Shown here: positions 2,068 to 13,312 of the stretch, piece after piece
How positions within the stretch are numbered: the stretch's first letter is position 1
Layout: every line of letters starts with the position of its first letter
Origin: an uncultured Candidatus Udaeobacter sp.
Lineage (GTDB): Bacteria; Verrucomicrobiota; Verrucomicrobiia; Chthoniobacterales; UBA10450
Direction of reading: 5' to 3'
Length of the DNA stretch: 13,312 nt
Assembly (NCBI GenBank): GCA_955652715.1
Contig: CATPBS010000350.1
Location: 1 to 13,312, forward strand
Position numbers and translations under genes: made by a program
Notes under the pieces: model-generated
Told to the model about the DNA's origin: nothing
Database searches by the model: none
Seen by the model: only the letters and a program-made list of their open reading frames with translations

Positions 2068-4731
2068 TCAGCTGCTGTAATCGAGATTCGGCGCGAGTCG
2101 CTTTTCCACTGCCGCGACCGATTCGCCACGCCGGATCGCATAATCGACTAGTTGGTCACGCCCGATCTGGCCGACTCCGAAATATTTAGCGGCAGGATGC
2201 GAAAAATAAAGGCCGCTCACGCTTGCGCCGGGATGCATTGCAAACGATTCGGTCAGTTTGATGTGTGCGTTCTTCTCAGCATCGAGCAAATCGAACAGCG
2301 TTCGTTTCTCTGCATGCTCGGGACAAGCGGGATAACCGGCAGCCGGCCGGATACCACGATATCTTTCGCGCATGAGATCGGCATATGACAATTGTTCGTC
2401 GCGTCCGAACCCCCAGGCTATCCGCGTCTGTTTGTGCAGATATTCGGCAAACGCTTCAGCTAATCGGTCTGCCAGCGCCTTGGCGATGATCGCGCTGTAA
2501 TCGTCGTACTGAAGCTTGAATTCTTCCGCGAGTTCATCCGCGCCATGAATCGAGACAGCAAATCCACCGAGATAATCTTCGAATCTCGAATCAGATTGCG
2601 GAGCAATGTAGTCGGCCAGGCAATGGTTGAATTGTCCTGGCGGCTTTTGCATTTGCTGACGCAAGAAATAAAACGTGGCGACGTTTTCGGAGCGCGCTTC
2701 ATCAGCGTAAAGATCAACATCGTCGCGAACTGAATTTGCAGGCCAAAAAGCATGCACGCCACGCGCGACCAGTAGGTTTTTCGCGGCGATGTGGTCAAGA
2801 ATGGCCTGCGTATCATCGAACAGTTCGCGCGCTTGTTTGCCAACCTTTGGGTCATCGAAAATCGCCGGATAACGGCCACGCAATTCCCACGCATGAAAGA
2901 ACGGCGACCAATCGATGAAGGGAACCAGATCGCCGAGCGCGGGAGCGCACACGCGCACGCCGAGGAAATCCGGTTTCGCGGGGAGACAGCTGCTCCAATC
3001 GATTACTGTCCGATTCACGCGCGCTTCTTCGAGCGTCAGCAGCTTTTTCCCTTGCGTTTTTGCCGCATGCTCCTGGCGCAACCGTTCATAGTCTTCGCGC
3101 GTCTTTTTATCGAACTCGGATTTGAGTTCCTCGTTGAGCAGGGAATTCACCACGCCTACCGCGCGCGACGCGTCCAGCACATGCACGGTGCTGGCCCGAT
3201 AATGCGGCGCGATTTTGACCGCGGTGTGCGCCCGGCTTGTAGTCGCGCCGCCGATCAACAGCGGCAAACGAAATCCTTCGCGCTCCATTTCCTGCGCGAC
3301 ATGGACCATTTCATCCAATGAAGGGGTTATCAAACCGCTCAAGCCGATCGCGTCTGCTTTTTTTTCCCTCGCCGTTTCCAAGATCTTCGCGGCGGGAACC
3401 ATCACGCCAAGGTCCACCACGTCGTAGTTATTACATTGCAACACTACTCCCACGATGTTCTTGCCGATGTCATGCACGTCGCCTTTAACGGTCGCCATCA
3501 CGATGCGCGCCTGCGGCTTCGCACCCGCAGATTTCTCCGCTTCCATAAACGGCATCAGGTAAGCGACAGCTTTTTTCATCACTCGGGCGCTCTTCACCAC
3601 CTGTGGCAGAAACATTTTGCCTGCGCCAAATAAGTCGCCCACCACGCTCATTCCGGCCATGAGCGGACCTTCAATGACGTCGAGCGGCCGCTTGCATTTT
3701 TGGCGCGCCTCCTCGGTGTCGGCGTCAATATGATCAATGATGCCTTTGACCAACGCGTGTTTCAGGCGCTCTTCGACAGGCTCTTTTCGCCACGCCTCAT
3801 CGGTGACAGGCGTTTTGCCTTTTGCTTTTACGTTTTCTGCGAAATCGACCAGACGTTCGGTTGCATCGTCGCGCCGGTTTAACAGCACGTCTTCGACCCG
3901 CTCTCGCAGCTCGGGGTCGATTTCTTCGTAAACCGCCAGCTGCCCCGCGTTCACGATTCCCATGTCCAGGCCGGCACGAATAGCGTGAAAAAGAAAGGCG
4001 GCATGCATCGCCTCGCGAACGGTGTTGTTGCCGCGAAACGAAAACGAAATGTTGCTCACTCCTCCGCTGACTCGCGCGCCCGGCAGATTTTTTTTGACCC
4101 AGCGCGTCGCTTCAATGAAATCGACCGCGTAATTGCGATGTTCTTCCAGGCCGGTGCCAATCGTCAGGATGTTTGGATCAAAGATAATATCGCTCGCCGG
4201 GAAATCCGCGTGTTTGATCAACACATCGTAAGCGCGGGAACAGATGTCGATTTTTCGCTGGAAACTGTCGGCCTGGCCTTGTTCATCGAATGCCATCACG
4301 ATGGTGGCCGCGCCATATCGCCTGATCAATCGCGCCTGCCGGAGGAATTCCTCTTCGCCGTTTTTTAAGCTGATGGAGTTCACCACCGCTTTTCCCTGCA
4401 CGCATTTGAGTCCCGCCTCGATGACGCTCCACTTAGAGCTGTCGATTACGATGGGAATCCGTGCGATCTCCGGCTCGCTGCCGATCAAGTTCAGGAAGCG
4501 AATGATGGCCGCTTCCGAATCGATCATCCCTTCGTCCATGTTGACATCGAGAAGGTTCGCGCCGCCCTGCACCTGCTGGCGCGCTACAGCCAGGGCACCG
4601 TCGAAATCCCCTGCCAGAATCAGCTTCGAAAACTTGGGCGATCCTGTGATGTTGGTGCGCTCGCCGACAACAACGAAGCCGAATTCCGGCGTAATGTTCA
4701 ACGGTTCGAGCCCGGAAAGTCGCAGAATCAT
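2068..4731 (-). CDS. metH: Methionine synthase, pterin/cobalamin/reactivation part (split MetH)
   Basis: This 887-residue protein corresponds to the C-terminal three modules of cobalamin-dependent methionine synthase (about 1227 aa in E. coli). In order: methyltetrahydrofolate-binding TIM barrel (about 10-275; [49 protein letters not shown]); four-helix cap (about 310-400, [20 protein letters not shown]); Rossmann B12 domain with DVHDIGKN at 418-425, His420 being the expected lower cobalt ligand, followed by [11 protein letters not shown] and [11 protein letters not shown]; and the S-adenosylmethionine-dependent reactivation domain (about 560-887; [30 protein letters not shown]). It lacks the homocysteine/zinc domain, which is the preceding gene. 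Its ATG overlaps that gene's TGA as ATGA, with no Shine-Dalgarno visible, so it is probably made by termination-reinitiation. The complex would transfer methyl from CH3-H4folate to cobalamin in the cytosol. All key residues are present. Confidence 0.95.
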
Positions 4732-5828
4732 TTACGGCTGATTGTGGTTTCTAGGACACGGGGCGAAAATTGACGCACCAGTTTTGCGAGCGCGTGGATG
4801 TGATCCGGCGTGGTGCCGCAACAACCGCCGACCACGTTAAGCCAGCCGTTCTCTGCCCACTTCGCGACCTTGGGTGCAAACGTTTCGGCTGTTTCCGGAA
4901 AACCGGTCGGCGAGAGCGCATCCGGCAGACCCGCGTTCGGATACGCGCTCATGTAGTACGGCGAGATGCGCGCCAGCTCTTCGATGAACGGCTCCATTTC
5001 GATCGGACCCAACGAACAATTCAGACCGACGATGAGCGGTTCCGCGTGCGCGATCGATATGAGCAACGCTTCAACCGTTTGCCCGCTCAAGTTGCGCCCT
5101 GACTTGTCGATCACGGTTCCCGAGATCATCAACGGCACGCTGCGTCCGGTTTTTTCAAATACATCAGTGATAGCGAACAACGCGGCCTTTCCGTTGAGCG
5201 TATCGAAAATGGTTTCGACAATGAGAAGATCGACACCCCCTTGGAGCAGCGCTTTCGCTTCATCGAAATAAGTTTGGCGAAGTTGATCGAACGAGACCGC
5301 GCGAAATGCCGGATCGTTTACGTCTGGTGAAATGGAACCAGCAACAGGAAGAGGTCCCATTGAGCCGCCAACAAATCGCTGCTGCCCGGTTTCATTCGAG
5401 ACGCGATCCGCAGCGCGGCGCGCGATCCTGGCCGCTTCGAAATTAATTTCATGAACGAGCGCGCGAAGATCGACATCGTCTACCACGCGCTGAAAGAATT
5501 CCTGATCTTTACGACCACGTGTGGGTTCGCCTTGAAACAGGAAATCGTTCAAGCCGATGGTTGTTCCGCTGAAGGTGTTCGTTTCGATGACGTCGGCACC
5601 GGCATCGAGATAAGCGGCGTGAATTTCCTCGACGACTTGCGGACGTGTCAAATTGAGCAGTTCGAGACTCCCCTTGAGGTCTTTGCCTTTCCAATCACTG
5701 AACCGCTTTCCTCGATAATCCGCTTCGGACAATTTGTAGCGCTGGATCATGGTGCCCATGGCGCCATCCAGCACGACGATGCGTTCGCGCATCAGCGCTT
5801 CCAGAGGATGAAGACCGTTTGTTGCCAT
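4728..5828 (-). CDS. Methionine synthase, homocysteine S-methyltransferase part (split MetH)
   Basis: This 366-residue protein is the N-terminal homocysteine/zinc TIM barrel of MetH as a separate polypeptide. Visible motifs: [12 protein letters not shown] (18-29), [10 protein letters not shown] (77-86), [20 protein letters not shown] (156-175), [15 protein letters not shown] (205-219), and the zinc ligands Cys271 (GLNCSLGP) and Cys336/Cys337 (GGCCGTTP). About 20 extra residues (roughly 97-119, around [15 protein letters not shown]) relative to my recollection of the E. coli enzyme sit before the EINFEAA helix. The protein ends at VLETTISRK, the position of the linker to the pterin barrel in fused MetH. 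It must cooperate with the downstream 887-aa subunit, or it could methylate homocysteine with another methyl donor on its own; the 4-nt overlap favours the former. Start ATG 5828 gives a normal N-terminus; no clear ribosome-binding site. Confidence 0.93.
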
Positions 5829-11320: not shown

Positions 11321-11370
11321 GCTGTCCCCAGCGCTTTTCCTTGGAGCGGTGCTAATCCGCTGAGGACAGC
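11321..11370. repeat. 13-bp imperfect inverted repeat in rpsP-khpA spacer
   Basis: GCTGTCCCCAGCG (11321-11333) and CGCTGAGGACAGC (11358-11370) are reverse complements except for one position, around a 24-nt loop. No T run follows, so it is not an intrinsic terminator. The 195-nt spacer 11284-11478 holds no gene; this stem could be an mRNA processing or attenuation structure, or a dispersed repeat copy. Confidence 0.6.
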
Positions 11371-11478
11371 TGACGCTACAGCATCCCTTCAGCGCGACTC
11401 CAAAATCAGTTTTATTCGTGTTCACCTGTCCCGCCGAAGCGTTGTGCGAATGCGGATTCATGGTTAGTCTTCTCACGC

Positions 11479-11709
11479 ATGAGAGAGTTTCTCGAGTTCG
11501 TCCTCCGTCAACTGATTGAATTTCCTGACGACATGGTGCTCATAGAAATTCCGAGCGGCAGAACGACCATATTTAAGTTGCAGCTTCGGCAGGGGGATGT
11601 CGGCCGCGTAATTGGCCGAGGCGGGCAGACCATTCACTCTATTCGCGCCTTGCTGGCCAGCTCCGCAGCGCGCCACGGCCAGCGGGCTATCCTCGAGATT
11701 TTGGAATAG
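11479..11709 (+). CDS. khpA: KH-domain RNA-binding protein KhpA
   Basis: A 76-residue protein consisting of a single KH domain: MREFLEFVLRQLIEFPDD (N-terminal helix), beta strands VLIEIPSGRTTIFKLQL, and the RNA-binding GXXG loop in GRVIGRGGQTIHSIRALLAS (GRGG at about 50-53), ending EILE. Size and position between rpsP and trmD match the bacterial KhpA (YlqC) family, which binds RNA, usually with KhpB, and influences division and small-RNA regulation in some bacteria. No KhpB is in the window. The stop codon TAG (11707-11709) is the first three bases of the palindromic element described next. No Shine-Dalgarno site precedes ATG 11479. Confidence 0.92.
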   Translation: MREFLEFVLRQLIEFPDDMVLIEIPSGRTTIFKLQLRQGDVGRVIGRGGQTIHSIRALLASSAARHGQRAILEILE

Positions 11710-11790
11710 GTAGGGGCGATTGACCTCGACCGCCCGTGGTTGATTATTTCCTGCACGGCGCGGGCGGTTCGGGTGAACCGCCCCTACCTA
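11707..11790. repeat. Double-hairpin palindromic element, copy 1 (khpA-trmD)
   Basis: Arms of 30 nt (11707-11736 and 11761-11790) are reverse complements at 25 of 30 positions, around a 24-nt centre. Each arm also folds on itself: 11714-11735 as GGGCGATTGA/TCGACCGCCC with one mismatch and one G-U, and 11762-11783 as a perfect 9-bp stem GGGCGGTTC-GGGT-GAACCGCCC ending 6 nt before the trmD ATG. The element fills the intergenic space exactly: its first bases TAG are the khpA stop and its last base is the A of the trmD ATG. Its relative is at 12478-12536. Confidence 0.8.
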
Positions 11791-12494
11791 TGAAGATCGA
11801 CATCGTCACGCTGTTTCCTGAAATCTGCCGCGCGCCATTGAACGAGAGCATGATGAAACGCGCACAGGAAAAGGAAATTGCTGATGTTCACATTCATAAC
11901 CTGCGCGATTGGACGACGGACAAACACCACGTGGCCGATGATGCGCCGTTTGGGGGAGGGCAGGGGATGGTGATGAAGCCCGAGCCGATTTTTGCCGCGG
12001 TGGAAGATCTCCAAACTCAAACGTCAGACGTCAAACGCCGAACATCAAAAACTATTCTGATGTCTCCCGCGGGCCGGCGCTTCGATCAACAAATGGCGAG
12101 ACAGCTTTCGCAGGAATCGCATCTGATCGTCGTTTGCGGCCATTACGAAGGAGTCGACCACCGCGTGATCGAACATCTTGTCGATCTTGAGATTTCGATT
12201 GGCGATTATGTGCTCACGAACGGCGCAATCGCCGCGGTCGTTTTTGTTGATGCAATCGTGCGTTTGCTGCCGGGCGCGCTCGGGCATGAACGATCCGCTG
12301 TCGACGATACCTTCAGTCTCGAAAGCTCGGGACTTGAGGCGCCTCAGTATACGCGGCCTGCCGAGTTTCGCGGCTGGAAAGTTCCAGAGATTTTGCTTTC
12401 CGGAAATCACGCTGAGATCGCAAAGTGGCGCAGAGAACAGGCGACCAAGCGCACGCGCGAGAATCGTCCTGATTTGCTGGGTAGGTGCGATTGA
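11790..12494 (+). CDS. trmD: tRNA (guanine37-N1)-methyltransferase TrmD
   Basis: Start ATG 11790 gives [11 protein letters not shown], the standard TrmD opening; the frame from 11736 only translates the repeat. The 234-residue SPOUT methyltransferase uses S-adenosylmethionine to make m1G37 in tRNAs for Leu, Pro and Arg (the tRNA-Pro here has G37), preventing +1 frameshifts. Motifs: [13 protein letters not shown] (50-62), [10 protein letters not shown] (91-100), the knotted AdoMet site [13 protein letters not shown] (114-126) and [12 protein letters not shown] (134-145), [13 protein letters not shown] (158-170), and [12 protein letters not shown] (182-193) with Glu183 at the place of the Asp general base of E. 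coli TrmD, and LLSGNHAEI. Residues about 74-87 are encoded by a heptad repeat tract. The final GRCD and TGA come from the second palindromic element. The expected rimM before and rplS after are absent. Confidence 0.96.
12013..12047. repeat. Five 7-bp units inside trmD
   Basis: Bases 12013-12047 divide into five consecutive heptads: AAACTCA, AACGTCA, GACGTCA, AACGCCG and AACATCA. They encode a polar stretch near residues 75-87 ([12 protein letters not shown]) between the N-terminal AdoMet-binding part and the MSPAGRR strand, a spot where TrmD proteins vary in length. In the opposite orientation a unit reads TTCGGCG, one base from TTCGGCA in the 5978-6072 tract. Confidence 0.6.
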
Positions 12495-12536
12495 CGTCAA
12501 TCGCCCGCAGGCGCTTCAGGTGAACCGCGCTACCTG
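12478..12536. repeat. Double-hairpin palindromic element, copy 2 (trmD-fabF)
   Basis: The left arm (12478-12507) matches the left arm of the 11707-11790 element at 25 of 30 positions; the right arm (12508-12536) matches the other arm, with no centre between them. The left half contains a perfect 18-bp palindrome GCGATTGACGTCAATCGC (12487-12504), the right half a hairpin GCGCTTCA/TGAACCGC (12511-12528) with one mismatch. The element begins inside trmD and carries its TGA (12492-12494), and its other end carries the TAG of fabF on the minus strand (12530-12532). It could end or insulate transcription from both convergent genes. Confidence 0.78.
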
Positions 12537-13312
12537 ACTCGCCCCAATATTACGCAAGCGTTGATCCCACCGAAGCCAAACGAGTTGCTCATAACGTAAT
12601 TCAACTCCGCGTCGCGCCCATGATTCGGCACAACGTCGAGATCACATGCTGGGTCGGGATTTCCATAGTTAATGGTCGGCGGGATCCACTGCCGGTCTAA
12701 CGCAAGTGCGCAAAGCGCCGCCTCGATCGCGCCGGTCGCACCCAGCGGATGCGCATAATAACCCTTCGTCCCGCTAACAGCGATCCGCTGCGAATGCTCG
12801 CCGAAAACTTGTTTTATCGACGCCGTTTCCGCGCTGTCATTGAGCTGAGTCGAGCTGGCGTGCGCGTTAATGTAATCAATCTGCTCGGGTGTCAGCTGTG
12901 CGTCCGCGAGCGCTTCGCGCATAGCCCGAATGGACGACTCGCCGTTCGGCAGGGGCGATGTCATGTGGAAAGCATCGTTGTTCAAGCTGTATCCGAGCAC
13001 TTCTGCGTAGATGCGCGCGCCACGGGCTTGGGCGTGTTCGAGTTCCTCGACGACGATCGAAGCGCCGCCTTCGCCCATGACAAATCCATCGCGCAACATG
13101 TCGAATGGACGACAAGCGAAAGCCGGATCACCCGGCCACCTGCTCATGGTCTTAATGATGTCAAACGCACCGATGGTAATGGCTGTCAGGGGCGCTTCCG
13201 CTCCGCCCGCGACGATTACGTCAGCAAAATCATCCCGAATGTAACGCAGCGCTTCGCCAACCGATACTGTGCCACTTGCGCAACTGTTTGAATTTGTTGT
13301 GCCGACGCCGCG
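12530..13312 (-). CDS. fabF: Beta-ketoacyl-ACP synthase II (KAS II, FabF-type), N-terminus outside the window
   Basis: The frame runs from the stop TAG (12530-12532) to the right edge without interruption, 260 residues; the ATG at 13147 is internal. The fragment begins just before the thiolase-type active site: TNSNSCASGTVSVGEALRYI, nucleophile Cys encoded at 13280-13282. It then shows IVAGGAEAPLTAITIGAF, RPFDMLRDGFVMGEGGASIV, catalytic His in YINAHASSTQLND (most FabF have NAHGTST), Lys and second His in SGTKGYYAHPLGATGA, and SNSFGFGGINACVILGR with the gating Phe. The enzyme condenses acyl-thioesters with malonyl-ACP in fatty acid elongation. Family length is about 410, so roughly 150 residues are missing. 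A secondary-metabolite or polyunsaturated-lipid ketosynthase is possible; no ACP is visible. The last bases lie in the palindromic element shared with trmD. Confidence 0.92.
   Translation of the reverse strand, partial: RGVGTTNSNSCASGTVSVGEALRYIRDDFADVIVAGGAEAPLTAITIGAFDIIKTMSRWPGDPAFACRPFDMLRDGFVMGEGGASIVVEELEHAQARGARIYAEVLGYSLNNDAFHMTSPLPNGESSIRAMREALADAQLTPEQIDYINAHASSTQLNDSAETASIKQVFGEHSQRIAVSGTKGYYAHPLGATGAIEAALCALALDRQWIPPTINYGNPDPACDLDVVPNHGRDAELNYVMSNSFGFGGINACVILGRVR

Follow-up and report, generated by a model that had tools for sequence, protein, structure and literature searches.

The window analysed here, a stretch of 13,312 nucleotides, contains a trmD gene bracketed by two copies of a palindromic element that adjoins or holds ends of the genes here. 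The locus raises the question of what this element is and whether it supplied the stop codons found at or within it. Upstream of trmD lies khpA (11479..11709, plus strand; KH domain, PF13083, 62.5 bits), whose TAG stop at 11707-11709 touches the first copy. The trmD gene itself (11790..12494, plus strand; PF01746, 215 bits) reads its final codons and stop from the second copy, and a fabF-like ketoacyl synthase gene (12530..13312, minus strand; PF02801 and PF00109 on 12530-13147), which runs off the window, has its stop in the foot of the element.

Copy 1 (11708-11789) is located 5' of trmD and copy 2 (12479-12535) is located across its 3' end. Each consists of two hairpin units of 28-29 nt arranged head to head, unit A (AGGTAGGGGCGATTGACCTCAATCGCCCG) followed by an inverted unit B (AGGTAGGGGCGGTTCACCYGAACCGCCCG), both of which open, as known REPs do, with a GTAG foot. 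A foot reading AGGTAGGGGCG is common to both units; their inner stems are distinct, being GATTGACCTCAATC in type A and GGTTCACCYGAACC in type B. Two stem pairs are altered on both sides between the types, so that pairing is kept despite the sequence change, and 92.6% of the stem cells in 21 units are paired. In copy 1, unit A occupies 11708..11736 (plus strand; 43.5 bits, E 1.3e-7 with a covariance model), the first AG of its AGGTAG foot (11708-11713) overlapping the khpA stop. A linker with no strand assignment (11737..11760) separates it from the inverted unit B (11761..11789, minus strand; 50.4 bits, E 2.1e-9), which ends one base ahead of the trmD ATG at 11790. In copy 2, unit A (12479..12507, plus strand; 40.8 bits, E 6.3e-7, also seen in relatives) holds the trmD stop TGA (12492-12494) within its stem. 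Unit B of this copy (12508..12535, minus strand) is degenerate and weak when taken alone (19.7 bits, E 0.19); its boundary is kept in four relatives (G013, G022, G004, and G019), and the fabF stop TAG (12530-12532, minus strand) sits within its foot.

The preliminary description of this DNA had reported two copies with matching arms around trmD, the positions of the khpA, trmD, and fabF stops, and a trmD start adjoining the element, and all of this was confirmed. In a repeat search of the window, the left arms form a direct repeat (11709-11736 and 12480-12507; 28 nt, 86%), the right arms match over 23 nt at 87% (11759-11781 and 12506-12528), and copy 1 contains an inverted repeat of 31 nt at 84% (11706-11736 and 11761-11791). 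Folded as single-stranded DNA, copy 1 has z-scores of -6.2 and -6.1 on the plus and minus strands, and none of 200 shuffles was as good. The fold of copy 2 is weaker, at -1.3 on the plus strand, a value reached by 23 of 200 shuffles, and -2.5 on the minus strand, reached by 5 of 200. At Rfam gathering scores the window matched two tRNAs only, and an Rfam family for the element was accordingly rejected.

Several features of the surrounding sequence may be recorded here. An ORF starting at GTG 11736 crosses the second hairpin of copy 1 in frame into trmD, and would lengthen TrmD by 18 residues; the element leaves no ordinary leader before the trmD ATG. In the rpsP-khpA gap, at 11357-11382, there is a unit of another palindrome family, within 350 bases of the REP family described here, which matches at 96% over 26 nt a palindrome that ends trmD in G041, G015, G012, and G040. 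On the minus strand, positions 2068-5828 hold two ORFs (4728-5828 and 2068-4731) that overlap by 4 bases and that we take to be a split gene resembling methionine synthase MetH.

A blastn search of the element's own genome (G000; 2.0 Mb, 69% complete) with an 88-nt copy 1 query produced 35 matches at E <= 10, including 24 at E < 0.02, some of the matches being both strands of one palindrome. The covariance-model search proposed in the preliminary description was carried out with a model of 21 units. In the same genome it recovered at least 31 units at E < 0.02, a lower bound, since 150 of 1250 first-look candidates were scored. Copy numbers of this order led us to reject chance palindromes. 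The model was applied to 39 genomes in all, with 150 first-look candidates scored in each, so that all counts are lower bounds. Every one of the 25 genus genomes, our own included, matched at E <= 0.01, with counts ranging from at least 1 to at least 71, while outside the genus two of 14 genomes matched, weakly (E 0.0045 and 0.006). The family is nearly restricted to one genus. Among the best matches listed, the named relatives of TrmD come from soil MAGs, Verrucomicrobia or Chthoniobacterales. The copies, dispersed through the genome, are short stem-loops that start from a 5' GTAG foot, its four bases being present at 95, 95, 96, and 96% of 247 outer feet. We identified 92 head-to-head pairs, in which two inverse units form a larger hairpin, as the fold of copy 1 illustrates; many single units also occur alone.

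The preliminary description had further suggested looking for a RAYT gene, and one was found. Contig C110 of the same genome encodes a 155-amino acid protein that scores 92.3 bits against NF047646, the NCBIfam model of the REP-associated tyrosine transposase (cut-off 80). E. coli TnpArep (4er8, E 9e-7) is the one solved structure that it matches, and at 31.9 bits the predicted RAYT is distant from it. The A and B units lie on both sides of the gene. Upstream, the end of a unit A is 5 nt from the start codon; downstream, the foot TAG of a REP pair serves as the stop of the gene. There are nine Y1 transposase matches in this genome, the one on C110 sitting among A and B units. A search for homologues gave matches in 33 of 35 genus genomes, and 30 loci were fetched. 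All six loci with at least 63% identity carry A/B units beside the gene, the nearest within about 52 nt; none of the 24 loci with at most 44% identity has such units within about 1.5 kb at a cut-off of 20, and lowering the cut-off to 19 brings in a single unit, 1.1 kb from one of these distant RAYT genes. A 47% match in G013 lies outside the 30-locus sample. Some copy-rich genomes have no close RAYT (G007, G008, G015, and G024, with at least 55, 42, 36, and 33 unit matches; best RAYT 36-40%); either incomplete assembly or loss may explain this. At eight of the distant loci (L237, L240, L241, L242, L249, L252, L253, and L258), inspection by eye revealed GTAG-footed palindromes of a different sequence directly 3' of the RAYT gene, and several of these genes stop at the foot TAG of the palindrome. 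These eight loci are probably further REPtrons.

With a probability of roughly 0.8, we take both features of the window to be a GTAG-type REP pair (a BIME or REPIN), a non-autonomous element that would be moved by its cognate RAYT. The preliminary description had spoken of a REP/MITE-like element. The REP-like, multi-copy part of this claim stood, and the MITE part, in the sense of a DDE element with target duplication, found no support. A MITE derived from a DDE transposon with terminal inverted repeats would account for the inverted ends of the whole pair and would be expected to leave a target-site duplication of constant length. Across the 92 head-to-head pairs (loci up to L259), duplications of 2-8 nt were never above the level in shuffles, the units also occur singly, and the transposase found with them belongs to the Y1 RAYTs. 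This origin is therefore hardly credible. The same absence of a target duplication agrees with an element mobilized by a RAYT.

We next consider where the copies lie. The gene-end sample comprised 155 elements with 233 outer feet having at least 400 nt of flank (loci L088-L117 were left out); its loci are the best-scoring matches among those listed rather than a random sample, and genes were called with a codon-usage script, which missed khpA. A coding ORF stops at -2 to +16 of the foot in 58 of 233 cases, compared to 13 of 1860 random points drawn anywhere in the same loci, intergenic or not, with the same caller. Restricted to points at most 100 nt from a called gene end, the figures are 58/103 and 13/159. 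Farther inside, at +17 to +100, there is a small excess (14/233 feet against 73/1860). Copies are strongly concentrated at gene 3' ends, which bears out the earlier suggestion that the element tolerates or prefers such sites. Two findings had been named as contrary to that suggestion, a genome with these two copies only and placement that is random relative to gene ends; the family proved to be multi-copy and biased toward gene ends. In our own genome, a called stop falls at -2 to +16 in 8 of 20 elements and at -2 to +100 in 10 of 20, counts in which khpA is missed and copy 2 of the window is taken as a single unit, leaving its fabF side uncounted. When related genes were merged, 40 of 92 records fell at -2 to +16 and 11 of 92 at +17 to +100.

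Strong hairpins at gene ends could also be bidirectional transcription terminators maintained mainly by selection, with their repetition incidental. The orientation of neighboring genes is in line with such a role: among the 101 elements for which genes were called on either side, convergent genes flank 38, unidirectional genes 46, and divergent genes 17. In 10 of the convergent cases the element adjoins or contains both stops. The REP stems, however, are not followed by a T run. A scan of 11400-12700 with a terminator consensus found 3 sites against 1.4 expected from shuffles, and the sole site inside the element (11726-11743) is not a REP stem. Moreover, the cognate transposase and the near-identical copies across genes point to mobility. 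We consider a primary terminator function improbable, and retain the mobile REP pair as the working interpretation.

The positions of the stops show how the element can end a gene. The offsets peak at +3, where the stop is the foot TAG (20 cases), and at +13, in the stem of unit A (18), with further peaks at -1, where a T is joined to the AG of the foot (14), and at -2 (6). The sequence of unit A offers a stop within five codons in two of three frames, and that of unit B in one of three; in the remaining phase a chance T before the foot is needed, and otherwise the gene reads on. The claim that the element ends with TAG in two frames and TGA in the third did not survive this analysis, because T precedes just 27% of 247 outer feet and is thus not part of the element. 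For the same reason, a stop in every frame was rejected. Nor does landing on a gene end always restore a stop, as had been proposed: on 14 of the 113 sides with a gene end, the stop comes at +17 to +100, and a gene for an HD-domain protein in G006 reads on. In the T-dependent phase, the T is present on 14 of 21 sides (-1 versus +38, +41, and +68), an excess over its overall frequency that suggests selection for a prompt stop. After merging related genes, the stops fall in the three phases 14, 23, and 14 times. This is not clearly uneven, and thus argues against a mechanism that recognizes stop codons in frame; such targeting was rejected as the main cause of the bias.

To judge which stops come from the element, we compared the same gene ends in relatives. 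For khpA, the stop is at the same codon in all 27 genomes having the khpA-trmD gap (own included), 24 of which have no element copy in that gap. The khpA stop is therefore native, and supply by the element was rejected. The trmD end was present in 28 of 30 fetched loci. Six of the 28 (G000, G013, G022, G004, G019, and G002) carry the REP pair there, each with the trmD stop inside the pair, and G021 has an apparent remnant, recognized by eye. Of the other 22 genomes, 20 have a TrmD that ends 0-6 residues past RPDLL (or RPDLF); in G023 and G047 it ends later. GRGD or GRCD follows this motif in five carriers, which use the stem TGA, an end within the native range; in G002 the pair is in the opposite order, and TrmD is extended by 20 residues. 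FabF ends in GRVR at the foot TAG in five carriers, while in G002 fabF has its own TAG, 5 nt outside the pair. Three element-free FabF ends, decoded by eye, read GRIRN (G041), GRIRD (G040), and GRVRD (G046). These alignments show the trmD and fabF ends as read from the element, so that the earlier claim of three gene stops carried by it stood for trmD and fabF and failed for khpA.

Two other genes, assigned by Pfam, illustrate the same behavior. In 28 of 29 genomes, whether or not the element is present, a Cys/Met PLP enzyme gene stops at one and the same codon, and in four carriers the foot TAG lies exactly at that codon. A gene for an HD-domain phosphohydrolase, presumably dGTPase-like, stops within one codon in 27 of 29 genomes, 25 of 29 using TAG, which is often the foot of some palindrome (by eye); four carriers stop in the element, and the fifth, G006, is out of phase and reads on. 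It seems that the element can replace a native stop almost to the codon, though not always. The coincidence of the foot TAG with the relatives' stop codon in these two genes fits selection, and it also fits a scenario in which the GTAG of the foot mirrors a tetranucleotide in the target. Gene-end stops in a GTAG or GTAA context would then act as sockets open to repeated insertion and excision by several REP families, and the "supplied" stop would be the gene's own. The occupation of the same trmD end by different palindrome families would also follow. Against this, stops fall in every phase with respect to the foot, the trmD stop is the stem TGA rather than the foot, and the flanks of the feet show a weak TC preference only. 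In addition, GTAG is described in PMC8266576 as having a guide role in cleavage, with cutting at CT or CA, and not as the target. That such stops are long-lived docking sites, at which RAYT/REP families insert, excise, and replace one another, thus appears unlikely, though less so than the terminator alternative. If it were true, the last codons, stop, and spacer of trmD, fabF, and other genes would be repeatedly rebuilt from mobile hairpins.

Unrelated palindromes stand at the same gene ends in other species. One of them, around CCGCTGAGGACAGCGG, was matched 66 times in G041, 55 times in G015, 18 times in G012, and 5 times in G040, counts in which both strands can be included; in each of these four genomes trmD stops at the TGA of the palindrome. 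Another, TAACACAGGC..., with 27 matches in G045 and 14 in G014, supplies the trmD TAA in both. A third, at the trmD end of G001 and G005, is rare, and its 3 matches in each genome do not support a large family. The trmD-fabF gap thus holds the family described here in 6 of 28 genus genomes and other palindromes in several others. On a tree of TrmD plus KhpA built from 23 of 30 loci (seven were dropped for having no full trmD match or no khpA), presence of the family at the trmD end requires at least six changes, a count that treats the G021 remnant and the reversed G002 pair as present. Five of the 20 inner branches are starred and many are weakly supported, so that independent insertion, replacement, and gene exchange are indistinguishable on the tree. 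Turnover at this one gene end is likely.

Some neighboring palindromes are noted separately. In the khpA-trmD gaps of relatives (e.g., L093, L099, and L102), runs of TTGGACGTT-like units lie just upstream of trmD; such units are found in many species and are absent where the element fills this gap. A GTCATCCTGAGCGGAG-type palindrome is common in trmD-fabF gaps (L096, L098, L101, L102, and others), and in G023 trmD reads into it and ends in ...ACHPERSRRIPRR.

The most economical account of these observations is that REP pairs spread in single-stranded form, driven by the RAYT and leaving no target duplication; the RAYT, an IS200/IS605-like tyrosine transposase, would act on single-stranded hairpins. 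Copies would be lost wherever a gene body is hit, leaving gene ends as safe places, and those at gene ends would persist since an insertion in the last codons is presumably of little consequence. Translation would end at once, at the foot TAG or the stem TGA, in two of three phases for unit A and in one of three for unit B. Stop supply may thus be a by-product of insertion plus selection, with no designed function. The analysis adds a well-supported REP family and its cognate RAYT from uncultured soil Verrucomicrobia, together with a comparative picture of REPs taking over gene ends. Why REPs lie so close to stop codons, whether through targeting, selection or tolerance, is a long-standing question that becomes testable with strain-level genomes.

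The element is a new REP family of a known kind, with a cognate RAYT; among the papers searched, none dealt with this family, and stop supply by GTAG REPs has already been published. Di Nocera et al. 2013 (PMC3733652) report that GTAG REP termini often give TAG stops to flanking ORFs, and name Opitutus terrae, of the Verrucomicrobia, as rich in GTAG repeats. Like the super-family described there, our element has a GTAG foot, a short stem-loop, and head-to-head dimers, lies beside the 3' ends of convergent and unidirectional ORFs, and uses the foot TAG as a stop. It departs from that account in that the two units of a pair differ in type, and our analysis does so in that native ends of the same genes were compared in relatives; the comparison with the 24 GTAG families of that paper was by description, not by consensus sequence. 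According to work cited in PMC12306157, REPs at most 15 nt from a stop lower translation. The REPINs of Pseudomonas fluorescens (PMC3116915) likewise consist of two inverted REPs forming one hairpin, are associated with a RAYT, and have the pair as the proposed moving unit; those doublets are described as randomly distributed in extragenic space, whereas the pairs studied here lie at gene ends and are accompanied by many single units. Finally, as with RAYT/TnpA-REP systems (PMC2817692 and PMC8266576), the transposase gene is bracketed by its own REP type and has its stop adjoining or within a REP, and the distant RAYTs with different GTAG-footed palindromes resemble the RAYT-specific REPs described in PMC2817692.
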